Made by a program: the position numbers and the translations under genes. From Stereum hirsutum FP-91666 SS1 (taxonomy: Eukaryota > Basidiomycota > Agaricomycetes > Russulales > Stereaceae), in NCBI RefSeq assembly GCF_000264905.1, contig NW_006763137.1:514557-578556 (forward strand): a stretch of DNA of 64,000 nt, read 5' to 3'. Under the pieces are notes generated by a model. It searched no databases and was not told the origin of the DNA. It saw only the letters and a program-made list of their open reading frames with translations. Below, in pieces: positions 51,855 through 63,762 of the stretch (positions are counted from its first letter, which is position 1; every line of letters begins with the position of its first letter).

Positions 51855-54517
51855 ATGGACAACATGGTACATGCATCTATTCTGTCCATACCTTCAGAAA
51901 TTATATTCCAGATATGTGCCTTTCTCGACGTGCGAGACGTGATCAGCCTTCGTAAGGTGCTCTCCTCGCCTCCGGATGTTTATCTTTTCACTATCCAAGC
52001 ATTCCCTGACCACCTGTATATCGTGACAACCCACAGACATGCCGTCACATTTTCTCTCTCTCGCATGACAAAGGCCTCTGGCTCGACTTCCTCCGACACC
52101 AACAGTCCTACCTCCCCCTCCCCTCCTCCGCTCGCCACACTTCCACATCCGCCGCCCTATCCTCTTCCTCTATAGAACATATAGTCATCTCCGCACGTAA
52201 ATCCCAAACACGATGGTCCCTCCCGCGTTCAAACTCGGGTGTCAGACCGTTGCAGGGAAGTCCGGATGGGTATCAGGATATATTGCATCTGGCGTTGGTG
52301 CTCGATAGATGGGTGCTTTGTGTTTACAGTTCGGGAAATGTGGTGCTCTGGGATGGGGATGAGGTTGGGAAAGAGGAATATGATGAGGGGAAGAGTGGAA
52401 GTGATCCGATGCCTGCGGTTTGGGAGCTTTGGGGGAGCGAGCCTTGGACTTCAGCTATAGCGGTTGCAGATCCTGACGGCGATGCGATATACGTCGCCGT
52501 AACGCGAGCACAGAACAGGTCACAGGAAGGGTATGTACTTATATTCATCTATTCAATATGTCACTCTTATGGTTGCTAATCCACCGATAGTTCAACCACG
52601 GTCCTCATGCGCATCCCACTCCCCACCTCCTCCAGCTCTTCCGAGTCCCCAACACCCCCTTCCAATCCAATGCCAACGTCAACACCTCATCCTACCACAA
52701 ACGAACCACCACCACCACCACCACCGCCCCAAACCCGCTCTTCACCTCACTCTGAGTCTCATATCCATACCCATACCCTTCCCGACCCGTCCTCCCAATT
52801 CCACGACATCGACACCTTCTTCGGCCCCGACGCCCAATCCCTCCGCGTCCTCGACCCAACACACCACCTCCTCGCCTTCTCGCGCTCGACGCTCATCGAT
52901 ATCGTGCATTGGCCGAGTAACACGGGAATGAGTATTGATACGCATTCGGAGGATTTGGATCAATTGGTACGTGGGGTTGTCCATCTATATGTCGTGCGAG
53001 GAGGACTTATAATAAATGGCGTATTGTTTGTGATATGTGTGCGATAGTGGAACGGCATCATTGGCCTCCAATTCGTTTACTCTCCCCCGAGCCCTCAAAC
53101 GACACTACCCCCTCCAAGCCCAGGTGCAGGTCAATCACAGCCTGAATCGCTGTACCTCCTCTGCATCAAAGCCCGAACACTCGAGCTCTACCCTCTAACC
53201 CTTCCTTTCGCGCCCCATTTTTCTTACTTCGTCAACTCCGCACTCGGACCGCTGCCTAGTCCGTCACCCACAACAACCACCAGCACGTCGATCCCGTCCA
53301 CTTTCCTGCCGATTCAGAATGATCATACAGAGCTTCGTTCCTCATTCACTTCAACCTCAACCTCAACCTCAACCTCAACCTCATCCTCAGTCTCTACCCC
53401 CACTTCCACGTCCACCTCAACTCCAACCACGACTCCGCACGAATCTGCCTTTTACCACGAAGAAGAAGAACACAAACATGAGCATCTCAAACCCAGCCAC
53501 TCGCGCACAACACCCGGACACGGAAGACTCGGAGGAAGCGCACGAAAACCCGTCCGAGTCGCTCCCGGAGCGAAATATGCGTTCCCGACCACGACCTTCC
53601 GCGGCGTCTCCATCTCCTCCGTCTCCTCCATCTCCGTCTCCACAAGCTCAACCACTTCATATTCAGATTCGGATAAGTTGGAGGAGATAGAGCTGTCGTT
53701 CCTCGCGCATGATGTCCTGCGGGGAATATTTCATTATCGAGTCGTGGTGTCGTCTCCGGAGGCTTTTTCGTCGCACGGCAGGTTGTTGGGAGAGGGTGGG
53801 CCAGTGCCGTATGTCGATATGTGTGTCTCGCTCATCGGGATGTATAACATGGCTCGATCGCATCCACTGCACGTCCCTCGTTCTCCGACAACCTCATCCA
53901 CTGCCACCACGTCAACCCCTTCCTCATCCACCACCTCAACGCCCACCCGCCCACACTCACATCGACAACTAGGAAAAGCAAAAGCGCGCGCCCGCGCACC
54001 GGGGTTCATAGGTGCCGCGGCTCTAGGTCCACAGGGAATGAGAGGAGTATGGGTAGAAAGGACGAAGAGTGTGCCTTGGAGACGGGTCGTTGTGTTTTCG
54101 GCTTATAGATCGAGGGCTCTTGAAGCTGAGTCGGAGGATGAAGAACGGACAGAATCGGCGGGCGAGGGCGATGGTGGGGGTGAGGGCGAAGAGACCGAGA
54201 GTGACAATGACAGTGACGGAGAAGATGATGATGAACTGTCATGGACCGCCGCAGCCGGAGGCAGACCGGCCCAGATCGATGCGAGAACGGTGTATGAAGT
54301 GCATTCGTATGATTTGAGAGGTGCGTTTCGCCTACCGCCTTCTCCTGGCTCCTCTCCATCACCCCTTCCACGGAAAAAAAGACATGACTTGGGAGAAGCG
54401 GCACTGATGCGTTTCTGTTTCGGGTGTGGCGTAGAGGATCTTCTACACGTCGCGTTCTCAGAAGTGACGGGGCGGATCGTGGTTGGGACGCGGGCGGGCG
54501 GGGTTAAGGTCGTCTAG
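51855..54517 (+). CDS. F-box protein
   Basis: Five exons (51855-51956, 52037-52530, 52591-52966, 53048-54320, 54435-54517) give 775 residues in phase. The F-box is residues 8-55: ILSIPSEIIFQICAFLDVRD, then VISLRK spliced to TCRHIFSLSHDKGLWLDFLR. F-boxes dock on Skp1 in SCF ubiquitin ligases. The rest contains beta-propeller-like blades (HLALVLDRWVLCVYSSGNVV, AIAVADPDGDAIYVAVTR, LLHVAFSEVTGRIVVGTR) separated by long Pro/Ser/Thr-rich and acidic loops. Such F-box-plus-propeller-like proteins are common and highly variable in Agaricomycetes. A hexanucleotide repeat lies in exon 4. The last intron is open in frame on paper, but splicing joins DLR to EDLLHVAF, which reads better. Confidence 0.8.
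53340..53400 (+). repeat. CAACCT hexanucleotide repeat in coding exon
   Basis: The CAACCT/TCAACC unit repeats about five times in a row, then decays. In the F-box frame it codes for alternating Ser and Thr. Length variation would stay in frame. Confidence 0.75.
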
Positions 54518-55333
54518 TGACTGGGCTTACTTATGGGCTTTCCGAAGTCAGGCCTTAGATCTCGTTAGGTCGCATTTTGCGCTCTGTAGATGCATTCATT
54601 TGCAGACGTCGCTATCAATTTTCAAACGTGCCCATGCGATTTTACAGCCCGAACTTGTGCAGGGGATTAGGGCTGCGCCACGACGTCCGGATACCCAGCT
54701 TGTTCGCTGGATCTTCGCAATGCTGAAGTAAAACTGGCGATTTGATTCGTTCCCCTGGCTCGGGGAGATCAGCGTCCTATCAGTGTGGCGTCGGATGGGG
54801 TACGCGGTGCGTGGTACATAATTGAATTCAAGTTAAACTCGTACATGGCTCACGAGTCCCACAGACGCGGGAGTGGCTATAGTCAGCGGGCGCAAAGCGC
54901 TCATATAGAGTCCCAAGAAGTGGACATCCACATTTCCTGGTAGCCAGTCTCGTCCAAGACATCAGGCCGCCGATCCTTGTTATATCCATACGGATTGGGT
55001 AAGCTCAGCGGTGAGTCACTCAAGACTGTCGACTTCGAAAGTCTACCGTCTCTCTCGTATCTTTGTCCTTGTCCCTACCAGCCTCCTCCACCCGTCTTGC
55101 TCTCTCAAATTCGTTGCGACCTGCGTATGTCATGACTTAATCTTTTTTCGTCTTGTTTTGAACGTACTTGGCCTGCTTTCTGACTCTCAAATCAGCCGGT
55201 ACACTTGTAGACAATTTTGCGAATCGCACGACCATCAGCTCTCGAGCCCTCAGGGTATATTCCGGTACGCCTCCCGTTTTTGTCTGGAATCCTGTTCACG
55301 GGCCTGAATATCCGAACATCTTCAGGACCACTT
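54518..55333. other. Upstream region of the ATPase-methyltransferase gene
   Basis: A 98-codon frame at 55011-55307 and pyrimidine-rich runs suggest a leader for the next gene, perhaps with a 5' exon. Nothing firm. Confidence 0.4.
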
Positions 55334-58300
55334 ATGGCGTCTAAAACTTGGGAGCCATCGACATGGACTAGTATAGTGATCGCTTACCCTCAACCGTGGC
55401 TCAGCTTCGATGGGAGGAAGATATACGGCAGCCATAAAATGAGCTCCAGGACGAAGGCAAACAGTTTCCATCCATGCCTGTACCCAATAAGCACTCGCTG
55501 CAGGCAATGGACCACCACTATAGCATTTAGCGCGCTCGTCGAGAACGTCGTCGAGGGCATCCTGCAATGGGAGAGTCTGAAACATCACGAGCTTTGCGTC
55601 GAGGAGTACCGCGACGGAGCACTGGTAGAGGCGCCCGGCGAGTCCACTTCGGCAGGAGAGTCCGGCGCTATCGAAGGCCAGACAGTCGAGTTTTTTTTTT
55701 TAGAGTTGATTGTCCTTCCCTAGCAAGCGATGATACAAAGCGCCATCGTCTCGGATACATCGCGTGGAGACCGCGTGAAGATGCTCCTGATTATGGTGAT
55801 GTCGAGCTGTATAATGTTGGGGAGATAACTGGCGATGCGGTATGGAACATGGGGTTCACCACGAAGTCAAGGGACACCGATCTCGCTGGTCAATACGGAG
55901 AAGGAGCCAAACTCGGTAAGCATCTCTGTTTTGCTAACTTATATACATTTGTTCCAGTGACTGACCGCTTTTTAGCTGGAGCCGCCCTGTTGAGGGGACC
56001 TTCGGAAAGTTTGTTCTACCACAGTGGGAATGAGACCTGGGATTTTACCATCCTGGACTCTGATAGATATGGATATTACACTAGGGAGGTTGATCAATAC
56101 TTGGACGGCGTGCTGACACAAATCTTGCTTCTTCCATGGGCCGACACGGATTTCGACCGGTTCTTACTCCTTCGACCGCCCATATCGACGCTTCCCGACA
56201 CATCGGCTGGTCGTGTCAAGGCCAAGCTAGGATGGGTCTTATTGGACGAGCGTCATCATCACAAGATTTATGTATGTTCTTGACGTTGATCTGTTCGTAT
56301 GCAGCTTTGGAGCTGACTGAGGGATCCCACGTACACAGGTCAAGGGTATCTTCATTCGTGCGGAAGATGATCCTTCTGTTGGTCTCTGCTGGGGGTACAA
56401 CTTTGTCCACGGTGTCGATGTGAACTGTGACCGTAACGCGCTGGTCAATAGCAGCTCGCTATCTACAGTGATCTACAAAACATGGAAGCCTCTGCTCCTG
56501 ACTTCATCCCAAGCTCGACAACACTACATCGACATGCTATTCGACCACGAGAAATGTCTGGACGTTTCGGGGTTGCGAACCTGCATCACTCGCCCGGTGG
56601 CGGTCGTTTTATTCAAGGCCTTGAAACAGAAGTACGGCCCGAGGGCCTTCTTCTACTATTCCGCTGAGACAACAGAAGCCAGGCGCATCATCGAGACGTC
56701 CTTGAAGAGGAGGCCTGTGTTGCTGAAAGAATTATTTTGGGACTCCCTTCGGCAGTGGCCCGGTCTGGTCATGACGCCGTCGGAGGCGAGGCAAAAGTGG
56801 TTCCGCGATCTTCCTGAATATCCGATAGACGTCTCCACTAGAGCTGAGACAGACATTCTGCATACCGTCCGCTCGTTTTTGCTTTTGGACGAAAGGACGG
56901 AGCGTTTTCTCGACCGTTGGGTTTTCAAATCCTGCCCCGCCGATTCTGGAGACGTCGAATGTTCGATTATGCCTGGCGGCGAGCTTCACCTTTCCGATCG
57001 ACTCCTCAGACCGGAGTAAGTTCTTTTGTCATTTTATCTTTCGTCTCCCACCATTGATTAGAGGCAAAAAGATACGTCCACAGCAAGCCGGGCTGGTCCA
57101 CTTGTCTTATGCACAACGCACGCAGTCGAGGAACAGATTCAGCCGTTGTCCAATGTCACTGTGCCACCCTCTACATCGGCGGTCTAGTCGTAGATGAAGT
57201 GCAGGAGTGCAACGCTCACGAAAAGGATGCACTCAAAGTCACACAGCGCAATTTGGTGTCTCAGATGCCACGCCACGTCTCGTTTGTTTTCGACGAATCC
57301 GAAGAGAACTCTGACAGTGTGGTGACTTTTCGATGGGAGGCCGCGATGGAAATGTCCGACTTCATTCTCTGGATCCGACCAGCTGAGGATCATAGTGAAT
57401 CCCAGTCGCCTTACATATTCCGAGCTTCCGACGACGCAAACCCTGTGGATAACACAGACGACGCAGACATGGATATAGACGACCAGCCACACGATGAGCG
57501 CGGCGGTTATCGTGCGACTTGTCAGTTCCATCCCAGTTCTATAGTATCATATGGTCACGACGGTTTACTGATCCTCTTCATACCTAGCACGAGGGTCTGA
57601 AGAGTTCACTTCAGTTCACGGCAACTCGATAGACGTGCAGGGATTCCAGCCCGCCGAGGTCTACACAATCCAAGTCAGAAGAGACTGTAACCTTGCTATC
57701 TGGAGCCCCCCGATCCATCTCACTATTCCCAGTAACATCACTCGGTCTGCGTCGTCCTCTACATCAACTCCTCCTATCGAGAACACGACTCCTTCCCGAG
57801 GTTCATCCCCCGACGTCACGGACACGCATGAATATCGGACACCAAGTCCTGACGTCCACGGGGGCGCCATGGTTGCGAATGCGGAGAGCCTTCCCGGTGC
57901 GCGCGTGGGCCCACGACAGCCTACACCACCGGGGCCAAAGAAAGCCCAACCCGAGTCTCCGAGTAAGAAAGCTGGCACAATCCAACATTCGGAGGGCGAT
58001 CCTGCACTCAAATCTCAGGACGCCATCACCTTCTTCAACGATCTCGTAGCGTCTCCGCGTCAGTCCGCCCTTTTTCGCGCCGACTTATCCAGAACCCGCA
58101 TGCGTATAGCGAGCCGACCGAAGCGTACGAAACGTACCCGGAAAATCAGTCACTACGCAGAACCTGTGGCTGTCGGAGGGGAACAGGGTGACGGAGGTGA
58201 CGCTTTTGAACCGGACCCAGACGAGATCGCTGATGATGGTGAGGCCGCTGATGATTACGAATATGAGCCGTCGGAGGACGATCAGGACGATCTTTCAATC

Positions 58301-60687
58301 TGGAAATTGGGCATGGACGAGGTAAGTTAATGCTTTTCTGCAAACCGGATTCTCGATGGGCTGCTCTGACAGGCTTTCCATTTCCCCAATATAGACTATC
58401 GAAGGCGATGAAGATAACTCAATGATGGTCGAAGATGAACCTCCTGCTCTGGCCCATGCTCGTCCTTGCCCGATTGATGCCCGGAAGCTTTGTGCCGGCC
58501 ACTCCTATGAGATATCGTTCCTCCACGGTCGCAGGAATGCACGGAGGTCAGCGATTATACAAGTTCTTGAGAACGCTACGTACGAGGGTACATCGAGAAG
58601 CAAGGCCACCCTACGTGTGATACGTTACATTCATGCCTCGGACTATTTCAAGTCGACCCCCCTCCCTAACCCCCAAGGTCAGGTCATTCTGCTTCATCAA
58701 GAAATCCCTGAGGATGGGATCATATGGCGAGCATTGGCTGAAGATTTCCCATCTCACTCCATCATCGAGGCCAAAGAGGTGACCATCGTCTATCCAGAGT
58801 CATCTCACATCTCGCACGAACCGCCAGCACCAGAGGGAGAGCTTATGTGGTACATCTGCCATTGGACCATGGCGGCAGACGGGATAGAGGACCAATCGGC
58901 TGCTATATATCGCCTCCCTCCTGGACCCGACTGGGCCGATATTCTCGTAGTGTACGTTCATCCCGAGGTCGCGGGTTTACCAATACTTCCACCCTACGAT
59001 AATCCATCACTATACGAGAATCCATCGACGTTGGATATATTCGCAGGTACTGGCGGCAGTTCTAGAGGATTCGAGGATGCTGGGTTCAAAATTATAGGAG
59101 CCGTCGAGAACAATCGTGATGCCGCAAACAGCTGGAAGGTAAGCTCGCCCACGTTTCATTACATTCGATGTGTAAGCTTACTCAAGGGCTGAAATCTGTT
59201 GTGAACGTGTCTGTTTTATGCCTTAGTCTAATTTTCCCCATGCTGATATCCATTATGAAGACGTCGAAATATTTCTAAACAACCTCAGCTCTGATACGAT
59301 CAGGCTCTCAAATCAAGTGACCGTCCTTTTGGCTAGCCCCCCTTGTCAGCCGTTCAGCAAGGCGAATGTCGGTCCCATAAATACGGACATAAAGAACATA
59401 GAGCAGCTTCAGATGGTCGCAAGGGCTGTGTCGATACTGAAACCCGCCTACCTCGTAAGTTTCGTGATCACTACAAGAATTTAGTAGTGTGTTCTAACTG
59501 CCACTCTGCCCTCCGCACCGGCTCATGCCTTCACAGTTTCTAGAGGAAGTTGACGTACGTGACTTCAAATATCCATTCAGTGCTGCATTAACGAAGCTCC
59601 CTCTAGTCGCTTTTGCATCCGGCCCATCGAAAATATTTTGAAGCTCTATTGGTCGCGCTTCTGCAGATGGGGTATTCCATCAGGTACATGGTTCTGAACG
59701 CAGCAGATTATGGTGTTGCAACTACGCGCAAAAGGTTGATCACCCTTGCCGCTGCTCGAGGTTTATATCTGCCAGCCAGGCCCAAGCCAACTCATCGAGA
59801 CCCGGAGTACGACTATGAAGAACCAGCGCCTTCGCTTCTTTATGTGACTGTCGAAGATGCCATACGGGACCTAGAATGGCGGAATCCCCGAATCGACGCA
59901 CGGGCTATCGAGACGAAGAAATACAAGACGTTGTGCAACATACCGCAAAGCACCAATTGCCGGGAGCCAAGCGATTATGCACTTTCGCTTGGGCGCCAAG
60001 CGACCGGGCTTATAAGCCATCACATAACTGGGAGGAAAGCAAATGAGAGTTGGGACCGTCAGCGAACCCTAGGCGAATACAACAGACCGCTCACTAGTAC
60101 GATCATCATATCGATAAATTGTCCGGGTCCGATACTCACTGACGTCTTCTCGTTTTAGCCATCTTGACTACTCCGACCAATCGTTGGAAGTGCCGCCATC
60201 CTCGTATGGTTTCTATGAACTCTGCTTTATGTTCGCTGAGAAGCTGACCATCATGGTGATCGCCCACCTTAAGGTTTCCAAGACCAGATTATGTCTCCTC
60301 GGGAGCTGGGTAGAATTATGTCATTCCCTGTGAGTTACAACGGGCCATAGATTTATTACGACAGTATATTCGTTGACAAGAGCTCTGCTATAATAGGACC
60401 AGCATCGTTTCAGTGGGCTCCTTGGCGCACAGTACCGTCAGATTGGAAATGCCGTCCCTCCACTGCTAGCGAAAGCAGTGGCGCTGGAGATTCGCGCGGT
60501 ACTTAAGAAGCTGAAGTACAGGTTAGAATATACATGGTCATCTCAAGCTAGTACTGCAAGCATGGCCGAAGACGAGCATGCGGAATCCCAGGGTCGAGCG
60601 CAGGAGAAACGACGAAAGGTGACGCGTGATGGACTTGAAGAAGCTGGAAGGGCGAAGAAAAGGTTTCGAGCAGCGTCGGATCCTTGA
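55334..60687 (+). CDS. GHKL ATPase-C5 DNA methyltransferase fusion
   Basis: Thirteen exons (55334-55641, 55704-55915, 55976-56271, 56339-57015, 57084-57520, 57588-58321, 58395-59138, 59227-59454, 59537-59554, 59607-60096, 60159-60208, 60288-60329, 60397-60687) give 1508 residues with every junction in phase. Residues about 65-200 look like a GHKL ATPase: an N-box helix (FSALVENVVEGILQ), LGYIAW, VELYNVGE, then GFTTKSRDTDLAGQYGEGAK, resembling the G-K-S and GEGxK lid of MORC-like ATPases. After long linkers and a BAH-like region (about 910-1010) comes a complete cytosine-C5 methyltransferase. It has motif I LDIFAGTGGSSRGFEDAG (about 1101), motif IV ASPPCQPFS with the catalytic Cys, motif VI FLEEVD (ENV replaced by EEV), motif VIII YGVATTRKRL, and motifs IX-X ending QYRQIGNAVPPLLA. 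The tail is basic (EKRRKVTRDG, KKRFR). Probably nuclear. The intron at 55642-55703 is the weakest junction. Confidence 0.85.
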
Positions 60688-60740
60688 AGTGTTTAACTTA
60701 CGTGACTAGAATACTAGTAGACGAACAATCGTCTAGGATA

Positions 60741-61156
60741 CTGTAGTTTTTCGCGCACAAGTTCGTGTCCCGTGTCCCATGGGAGCCGCGAACGAACTTG
60801 TGCCGCGGGACAGTCCCACCCCATTGACGTGCACTGAACTTATAAATGGGACAAACCAAAATTTGACGAAAATTTAACGAAAATGCGAATATACTCTAGG
60901 CTCCTAAATTGACCTCAGGAAGGCCCCCACGGCACACTTTGGGCTAGATTTTACTACTGGGTGAGCTCTTCCACCCCAATGCAGAGGATGAATGGCTGTT
61001 GAGCAGTTATGAAAGGTCGTATTCCTGAAAAAGCGTTGATGTTCACGAACATTGTCCCTTGTCCCGGTCTGCTTGCGAACCGGGACGCGAACGGATTATG
61101 TCATCTCGGCAACGGCCGAGGGGCGGTGGCGTGAACTTGTGCGCGAAAAAGTACAG
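60741..61156 (+). mobile_element. 416-bp MITE-like element, copy A
   Basis: The element begins CTGTAGTTTTTCGCGCACAA and ends in the inverse complement of the same sequence with one change (CTGTACTTTTTCGCGCACAA), giving terminal inverted repeats of about 24 bp. TA flanks it on both sides, as expected of Tc1/mariner-type insertion. It has no coding capacity, but internal GGGAC-rich subterminal inverted repeats. Copy B at 63347 is the same sequence in opposite orientation. Confidence 0.82.
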
Positions 61157-61493
61157 TAGCCTCAGCGAGCCTAGTACCGATCCCCAAGAACATCAGACCA
61201 CACTGGACCGACAATGGTCAACGTTGGCTGGATTGATTCTAGACGAGACTGGCGTGAACTAGCTATTTCGTCAATATTTCGTGTGGCGAAGACACAGTCG
61301 TGGGTAGAAACGCGGTAGGTAAGACAAACAGAGAAAAACAACGCGCTCGCGTCATGTTGAGAAGCCACGCGACCCGGCCGAAAAAGTTTATAAAGGTCTC
61401 CGGGCTCGCCTTCCGTCTCTTCACCCTTCTCCTTCCTCCCCTCCGTTACATTGTCGTTACGTGTATAATCGAACGATTATCTTTGCCTGAAAC
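61157..61493. promoter_or_regulatory. Promoter of RNR2
   Basis: A TATA-like TTTATAAAGG lies at 61388-61397, about 100 bp before the ATG. Two ACGCG cores (about 61341 and 61367) resemble the heart of fungal MluI cell-cycle boxes, which drive S-phase genes such as ribonucleotide reductase. The MITE-like copy A ends 337 bp upstream of the ATG, close enough to affect this promoter. Confidence 0.5.
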
Positions 61494-63083
61494 ATGTCTA
61501 ATATTGTACCGTCCACGCCTCCTCGCATGGCTTCACCACAGCCTACGCCTAGTAAAAAGGCTCGTCGCGTCGTTTTGGTTGATCACCGCGTTTCCAACAT
61601 ACCTCTTATATTCTCTTTCCTTTATCTCATTTAGGTCGCCGCCGCTCTCGAATCCTTCTCTCTCAATACTCCTAAGGCCTCCTCGAGCAACCTGATCGAC
61701 GACGCGCGTGTTCCGAATTCTCCAGATACCGTCAAGGACGCCGACGAGCTGCAAACCGTAGCAGCTCCTGCGGAGGAGGACGGAGATGTCGAAGATTGGA
61801 GAAAGCGGTGGGTCGGGGAGGTTGATGTAGAGGAACGTGAGTAGATCCTTGCTGTCCTTGTTGCTCCGAGCGGCGTCTCATTTGGCGCTCAGACATGGAG
61901 CCTCTCCTCATCGAATCCAAACGCCGCTTCGTTCTCTTCCCCATTCAATATCATGAGGTACGTCTATCCCTTTGCGTATCTCCTTTCGATGCTTTTTTGA
62001 CACGCCATGATGTGTGTCCAGATCTGGCAAATGTACAAAAAGGCCGAGGCCTCCTTCTGGACCGCCGAGGAGATGGACCTCTCAAAAGACCTTCACGATT
62101 GGAACAACCGCCTGAACGACAACGAGCGCCACTTCATCTCTCACGTCCTCGCTTTCTTTGCTGCCTCCGATGGTATCGTCAACGAGAACCTCGTCGAGCG
62201 TTTCTCCAACGAGGTCCAAGCCGCCGAGGCTCGCTGCTTCTACGGCTTCCAAATCATGATGGAGAACATTCATTCTGAGACCTATTCTCTTCTCATTGAC
62301 ACATATATCAAAGACCCTAAGGAGAGGGACTATTTGTTTGATGCCGTGGAGACGATTCCTTGTGTAAAGAGGAAGGCCGACTGGGCTTTGAAGTGGATCT
62401 CGGATAGGAGGTCGTGTTTCGCGGAGAGATTGGTTGCGTTCGCGGCTGTGGAGGGAATTTTCTTCTCTGGGTCGTTTGCTTCTATCTTCTGGTTGAAGAA
62501 GAGGGGTTTGATGCCTGGTCTTACGTTCTCGAACGAGTTGATCACGAGGGACGAGGGGATGCATACCGACTTTGCTTGCTTGCTGTTCAGCCATATGAAG
62601 AGGAGGCCCCATCCCGATACCGTCCGCCGGATCATCTCCGAGGCCGTCGAGATCGAGCAGGAGTTCTTGACCGGTACGTGCCTCACTTCCATATCTCGTA
62701 CGACTTTTGTCGCTGACTGCGTTCATGTACAGACGCCCTCCCATGCGCCCTCATCGGGATGAACTCCAAACTCATGCGTCAATACATCGAGTTCGTCGCC
62801 GACCGTCTCCTGCTCGCTCTCGGCGGAGACAAGTACTACAACTCGACGAACCCTTTCGACTTCATGGACATGATCTCCCTCCAGGGCAAGACCAACTTCT
62901 TCGAAAAGAGGGTGTCGGACTACGCTAAGGCTGGTGTAGCGAGCTCGGCCGCGAATGCCGGCGGAGCGGCGGAGACCTCCAAGGGATTGTGAGTTTCTCT
63001 CTCCTTTTTATGCATCGCTTGTTGGTGTGGATGCTGACTGGGCCATATCTTCAAATTTCAGCTCTGTCGACGAGGACTTCTAG
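61494..63083 (+). CDS. Ribonucleotide reductase small subunit
   Basis: Six exons (61494-61568, 61635-61836, 61893-61957, 62022-62673, 62733-62988, 63062-63083) give 423 residues in phase. Family marks in order: [40 protein letters not shown] (first metal-ligand region), [40 protein letters not shown] (iron ligands and radical Tyr region), [35 protein letters not shown], and the C-terminal FSVDEDF heptad-type tail that docks on the large subunit. The enzyme carries the diiron-tyrosyl radical for making deoxyribonucleotides. The last exon has only 22 nt and supplies the docking tail, so correct splicing there matters. The N-terminal 60 residues are a Ser/Pro-rich extension usual in fungi. Confidence 0.96.
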
Positions 63084-63346
63084 ATTCCCGAGATCGTTGG
63101 CCTTTTGTCCTTACGTCGTTGCCTGCTCTCGCTCGCTCTTGTCCACTTGTCCCTCAATGTCGTTTTGTCTAGATCTACCACTCATCTATCGTATTCTGTA
63201 ATTATGTATCACCACCACTTACTATCTTGATCATCCCAATGGCGCTTTGAAGTCGTTTCTTCGATCCAACTCTTACTGCCTATATGGCCACGTATACGTA
63301 GAACGAACATCTCAGAAAAGCAAAAAGCGCTTTCGCGAGCAGGGTA
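63084..63346. other. RNR2 3' region
   Basis: 264 bp between the RNR2 stop and copy B of the MITE-like element, presumably the 3' untranslated region. Confidence 0.5.
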
Positions 63347-63762
63347 CTGTACTTTTTCGCGCACAAGTTCACGCCACCGCCCCTCGGCCGTTGCCGAGAT
63401 GACATAATCCGTTCGCGTCCCGGTTCGCAAGCAGACCGGGACAAGGGACAATGTTCGTGAACATCAACGCTTTTTCAGGAATACGACCTTTCATAACTGC
63501 TCAACAGCCATTCATCCTCTGCATTGGGGTGGAAGAGCTCACCCAGTAGTAAAATCTAGCCCAAAGTGTGCCGTGGGGGCCTTCCTGAGGTCAATTTAGG
63601 AGCCTAGAGTATATTCGCATTTTCGTTAAATTTTCGTCAAATTTTGGTTTGTCCCATTTATAAGTTCAGTGCACGTCAATGGGGTGGGACTGTCCCGCGG
63701 CACAAGTTCGTTCGCGGCTCCCATGGGACACGGGACACGAACTTGTGCGCGAAAAACTACAG
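63347..63762 (-). mobile_element. 416-bp MITE-like element, copy B (inverted)
   Basis: The reverse complement of copy A at 60741, the same length; I found no difference between them on comparison by eye. It is flanked by TA on both sides with unrelated outside sequence (left GCAGGG, right CATACC). That argues for a separate insertion rather than a segmental duplication. Confidence 0.82.

Follow-up and report, generated by a model that had tools for sequence, protein, structure and literature searches.

Cytosine methyltransferases and ATPases of the GHKL type have been found side by side before. MORC and paraMORC GHKL ATPases are encoded next to cytosine methylases in bacterial restriction-modification operons, and MORCs are stated to be absent from fungi, both according to the available part of PMC2292703. 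Among fungal methyltransferases, DnmtX is listed as an orphan class in the accessible portion of PMC10538959, and its composition is given as BAH plus methyltransferase in that of PMC11185503. Here we describe a gene at 55334-60687 of a 64,000-nucleotide stretch of Stereum hirsutum FP-91666 SS1 (the window; contig NW_006763137.1), which joins a GHKL-type module to a C5 methyltransferase. In our reading, which we put a little above even, the locus is a divergent copy of an agaricomycete family whose proteins start with a GHKL and S5-like module related to the phage family phrog_6077, continue through a middle region and an acidic linker, and end in a C5 methyltransferase resembling DNMT1, the GHKL part presumably working as a clamp.

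A family with one architecture

Searching the Stereum genome with the window gene model gave 29 matches, 12 at the window locus, 7 and 9 at two loci on C15 and one on C3. The C15 loci (L029 and L030, within C15:1112000-1131800) have their parts in the same order as the window gene, and the same architecture is found in the protein database in three single annotated chains of 1456-1573 residues, from Artomyces pyxidatus, Armillaria novae-zelandiae and Hymenopellis radicata (P0004-P0006). A fourth database match, P0007, is a tandem methyltransferase lacking the N-terminus that shares the methyltransferase only; it was excluded from alignment A3, and a second search, made with an alignment, returned the same four proteins. 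As the database search sees only proteins of 0.55-1.75 query length that have short words in common with the query, the three outside members are a lower bound. A single-sequence database search gave three DNMT1-type proteins at 12% coverage, two of them from plants.

Ten of the 11 introns of the window gene, including 58322-58394, match L030 in alignment column and phase; the eleventh, in a badly aligned stretch, has no match there. The proposal that a GHKL module and a C5 methyltransferase lie in one chain gains support from the two paralogs, from the introns held in common and from the three other species. From exon 2 on, the window protein has an amino-acid identity of 0.40 with L030 and 0.41 with L029, ranging by region from 24% to 51% with a minimum in the middle (0.33 and 0.24, respectively). 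Four-fold sites are identical in 56/179 cases against L030 and 38/163 against L029, which means that synonymous sites are saturated, and 40-41% protein identity at such saturation implies that the window protein was long under selective constraint. The analysis shows the common architecture, the homology, the predicted fold of a relative and the residue losses described below. The match on C3 (L007, C3:2331071-2331235) is an isolated short methyltransferase-like piece of 49 residues with 43% identity, perhaps a relic copy.

The gene is a single one on the plus strand, with its stop at 60687, and consists of the following parts.

55334..55690, + strand: exon 1, 3' end ambiguous; N-box region of the GHKL domain, SALVENVVEG at 55529-55558
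55704..55915, + strand: exon 2, 55704 being one of several 5' choices; LYNVGEI 55807-55827, GFTTK 55852-55866, lid GQYGEGAK 55888-55911, donor GTAAGC
55976..56271, + strand: exon 3, last part of GHKL and beginning of the S5-like (transducer) part; both flanking introns common to L030
56339..57015, + strand: exon 4, closing part of YVKGIFI, CDRN where relatives have RDR, helical part past S5
57072..57520, + strand: exon 5, middle region, family-specific
57588..58321, + strand: exon 6, possibly an Fn3-like stretch (weak), then the low-complexity acidic linker
58322..58394, + strand: intron that the original prediction singled out for checking; phase 0 and column as in L030; displaced by one column in L029
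58395..59138, + strand: exon 7, region preceding the methyltransferase; motif I, DIFAGTGG, starts at 59034
59227..59454, + strand: exon 8, methyltransferase motif IV PPCQPFS 59338-59358
59537..59554, + strand: exon 9 (18 nucleotides), motif VI, LEEVD where ENV is expected
59607..60096, + strand: exon 10, motif VIII TTRKR 59721-59735, target-recognition region
60159..60203, + strand: exon 11
60274..60329, + strand: exon 12, motif IX RELGRIMSFPD, continuing into exon 13
60397..60687, + strand: exon 13, motif X IGNAVPPLLAK 60442-60474, followed by a basic tail and the stop

The in-phase canonical introns first proposed hold for most of the gene, in which 12 exons are connected in phase by 11 GT-AG introns (55916 to 60396) with no internal stop; they do not hold for the junction of exons 1 and 2, where the frame changes at an 11-T run (55691-55701). 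Of the two frames, the upstream one is open as far as 55723 and the downstream one from 55531, and the L030 protein fits the upstream frame before the run and the downstream frame after it. How is this junction bridged? There are at least five possible GT-AG choices, none with a consensus donor, and in L030 the region is one continuous exon, so that the change may come from a small intron, from a slip in the sequencing or from a real break of the frame.

The N-terminal module and its phage relatives

Pfam finds no ATPase domain in the window protein, the fungal profile finds no solved structure by sequence at E up to 10, and a genome search with HATPase_c_3 (PF13589) gave two matches, on C5 and C16, and none at the window locus. 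The predicted GHKL identity of the N-terminus rests on two other lines, a phage profile and the modelled fold of a relative. The profile of phrog_6077 matches all four members of alignment A5 (best 3.3e-13, L030 4e-5) and the window protein itself (5.9e-7), and besides these matches the two families have in common the N-box Y...W....RE..QN..D, the lid GxxG[ED]GxK, and YVxGxF followed by RDR. Structure prediction on the Artomyces relative returned a GHKL+S5 fold. Of the N-box and GEGxK lid claimed for the window gene, the lid is there (GQYGEGAK), as GxxGxGxK is in 5/5 copies scanned (window, L030, P0004-P0006). The N-box is altered: all four relatives having the region (L030, P0004-P0006) carry REL.QN..D, RELVQNVFD in L030, and the window copy reads SALVENVVEG, with the catalytic Glu lost, the Arg also altered and the Mg-binding Asn kept. 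Upstream of this box, a search of the codons for GLRE gave no match. RDR after YVxGxF is likewise present in the same four relatives and replaced by CDR in the window copy.

What are the phage proteins? They are standalone, 327-498 residues in the frames examined, whereas the fungal module is fused. The function of phrog_6077 is unannotated in PHROGs; one listed phage record calls its member an RIIA lysis inhibitor, and a comparison with T4 rIIA is weak (74 columns, probability 65). PADLOC gave a weak SduA match (E 0.06) in one of four members. In virus contigs the fungal profile found one locus, the protein of that virus found only itself, and the phage alignment found 39 loci; among named phages the Armillaria domain had no match and the virus protein matched 113 records. 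Of 35 virus records with the GHKL gene, 2 also contain a C5 methyltransferase; some of the records are perhaps fragments. Two scans of genome contigs revealed no prokaryotic relatives, yet the controls Thermus composti and Deinobacterium chartae match phrog_6077. A six-frame search of the Stereum genome with phrog_6077 found nothing up to E 1, perhaps since the exons are short.

For a tree, 34 of the 39 virus loci were aligned (A7, trimmed to about 340 residues), L039 being present as L031; L059, L061, L062 and L064, which are similar to others in the table, and L044 were left out. In this tree a long branch (100/100) sets the fungal domains apart, and because of its length the nearest phage subgroup cannot be named. 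Viral L066 and L072 keep a DxGxG-type G1 box at a place occupied in most other members by N or a different residue; the phage family thus covers both states. Phage loci L031 (4749-6128), L034 and L037 have a C-terminal HExxH-like stretch as in metallopeptidases; the SprT-like match of L031 is weak (E 0.1).

The methyltransferase half

PF00145 covers residues 1110-1457 of the window protein (E 8.4e-50), identifying a C5 methyltransferase, and the catalytic Cys of PCQ is present (SPPCQPF). The domain was originally described as complete; this stands for the PF00145 domain and PCQ and fails at motif VI, which is EEV in place of the ENV found in L030 and L029. DNMT1 is the closest solved structure both to L030 and to the family profile. 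RFD and BAH have no Pfam match at E up to 10 in the window protein, L030 or P0004-P0006, and the window protein has no SNF2 match. A BAH domain ahead of the methyltransferase, suggested by eye, was rejected, having neither a Pfam match nor a meaningful alignment to BAH-carrying DNMT1-type proteins. An Fn3-like stretch is seen weakly, via L030 and the family profile (E 0.008 and E 0.07) and not via the window protein. Elsewhere in the genome there is a DNMT5-like place (methyltransferase C7:1598969, SNF2 C7:1602007, matches about 2.5 kilobases apart), and DNMT2-like and DNMT1-like genes were recognised by eye from frames.

Copies that differ in their key residues

The cleanest copy, judged by its residues, is L030 on C15: the N-box, lid, RDR, PCQ, ENV and motif X are all intact, and of the methyltransferase motifs I, IV, VI, IX and X are kept. 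Active methylation is most plausible for this copy. L029 has lost its N-terminal exons or has them in decay (L029:1400-1497 is a possible remnant), and carries one in-frame stop and PCE for PCQ, with ENV kept. Among the copies having the GHKL N-box region the window copy is the weakest family example, and with key GHKL residues lost it is probably weakened or decaying. Because GHKL and motif VI residues are altered, it is doubtful as the complete methyltransferase and self-contained silencing machine of the original prediction; the proteins of the three other species are likewise doubtful as such, since their methyltransferase lacks PCQ and ENV.

Several points weigh against our reading of the family. 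PCQ and ENV are lost in 3/3 other species. In none of the five fungal copies does the GHKL domain contain the G1 box DxGxG; N stands in the strand concerned, and the sole DxGxG string in these copies lies in P0006, far outside the domain. In yeast Hsp90 the equivalent Asp is required for ATP binding. With this adenine-contacting residue absent, ATP binding may be altered or lost. Moreover, the structure was predicted for the Artomyces relative and not for the window protein, its Foldseek TM-scores are low (best 0.34 over the query among the PDB matches listed), and an earlier prediction on three sequences was poor (predicted local distance difference test, pLDDT, 45.5) and was not used.

Is the window copy, then, a decaying paralog with no ascribed function, L030 being the working member? 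We give this even chances. The altered N-box Arg and Glu, RDR and ENV, the frame change at the 11-T run, where no intron is evident, and the damage to a third copy, L029, all speak for decay, but the 12 exons past the first remain open and in phase, the identity of the protein to its two paralogs is still 40% and 41% (24% to 51% depending on the region) although synonymous sites are saturated, and the 11-T run is possibly an assembly error. Somewhat short of even, though with a real chance, is a second explanation, that the common function of the family is that of an ATP-driven chromatin clamp in which the methyltransferase domain serves chiefly as a binding module and methylation is beside the matter. 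The three relatives outside the genome have given up PCQ and ENV while keeping RE..QN..D, the lid and RDR, as this would predict; against it, L030 retains methyltransferase motifs I, IV, VI, IX and X, and three outside members are a small sample. The residue pattern suggests a writer form (L030) versus a writer-dead form (the three other species), with N-box, lid and RDR intact in the Artomyces, Armillaria and Hymenopellis proteins.

Other explanations fare much worse. The gene could be part of a mobile element carrying a methyltransferase, there being several copies in this genome and inverted repeats directly downstream; this is improbable, as neither the window protein nor L030 has a transposase or polymerase match, a long coiled-coil-like frame (by eye) lies between the C15 copies, and the repeats fail to enclose the gene (52500-63500 searched). 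L029 and L030 are arranged tail to tail about 6 kilobases apart, on either side of that frame. As for the repeats, 61003-61162 and 63341-63500 form a 160-nucleotide inverted pair, 99% complementary (the search ended at 63500), flanking 2.2 kilobases with a ribonucleotide reductase small-subunit-like frame (62001-62762, by eye), and a 30-nucleotide copy stands at 60735-60764, directly 3' of the methyltransferase gene.

The module had been called MORC-like, and a true MORC-family ATPase joined to a methyltransferase would find support in MORC4, whose ATPase is among the structural matches (rank 6, E 1.3e-3). Against this, the MORC S5 motif GhXhhpXXRhl, scanned as worded in the available part of PMC2292703 with our own residue classes for h and p, is missing from 5/5 fungal copies, a sequence comparison of the fungal profile with solved structures came back empty at E up to 10, and the match to the phage family is strong; the label is not supported, the relatives by sequence being phage GHKL proteins, and a MORC origin is very improbable. 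Finally, that two adjacent genes were merged by a faulty gene model, as the low-complexity acidic linker between the halves might suggest, is hardly credible with intron 58322-58394 common to three paralogs (L029 one column off) and the order of parts the same at three loci of the genome and in three other species.

A possible mechanism

Returning to the family reading, we infer ATP use, clamping, methylation and silencing by analogy. The GHKL modules of Hsp90, GyrB and MORC dimerise on nucleotide binding. On the likeliest mechanism the fungal module would do likewise and, once dimerised, would close around DNA or a chromatin partner; the closed clamp would keep the fused methyltransferase domain on that DNA. 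L030, with both residue sets, could then write 5-methylcytosine. In the three other species a domain without catalytic residues might act only as a reader, binding DNA or S-adenosylmethionine. How might such a protein have arisen? More tentatively than any of this, and against the odds as we see them, a fungal methyltransferase resembling DNMT1 may have acquired a phage-type GHKL clamp and so become a second ATP-driven machine for methylation, or for silencing derived from it, beside the SNF2-driven DNMT5; in several lineages the fused protein would later have lost its chemistry, leaving a clamp plus a reader derived from the methyltransferase.

Comparison with known systems

Each part is of a known kind; the way in which they are combined and the connection to phages appear to be new. 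No description of a GHKL-methyltransferase fusion was found in the literature searched, subscription literature being outside reach, and the available parts of the fungal methylation reviews and survey PMC7862722, PMC13297926 and PMC5073141 do not contain it. The pairing could be a second ATP-driven way of marking or clamping fungal DNA. If so, a second ATPase fold in a methyltransferase chain would offer a way to study how an ATP clamp is coupled to a methyltransferase, the phage relatives and the catalytically dead sister group would offer a way to study a writer turning into a reader, and a GHKL chromatin-type module would exist in a kingdom reported to lack MORC (PMC2292703, available part).

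Set against the described systems, the family resembles DNMT5 in that one chain carries both a C5 methyltransferase and an ATPase-type module; the ATPase of DNMT5 is SNF2, whereas the window protein has an N-terminal GHKL module and no SNF2 match, and the genome has its separate DNMT5-like place. With DNMT1/Masc2 and DnmtX it shares the methyltransferase domain, for which DNMT1 is the nearest solved structure. It differs from DNMT1/Masc2 in having a GHKL module and no RFD or BAH match; DnmtX is described as BAH plus methyltransferase (accessible portion of PMC11185503). With the MORC/paraMORC systems it has in common a GHKL+S5 module associated with cytosine methylases (available part of PMC2292703), but the bacteria use separate genes, and the fungal copies, without the MORC-specific motif, carry both parts in a single chain.
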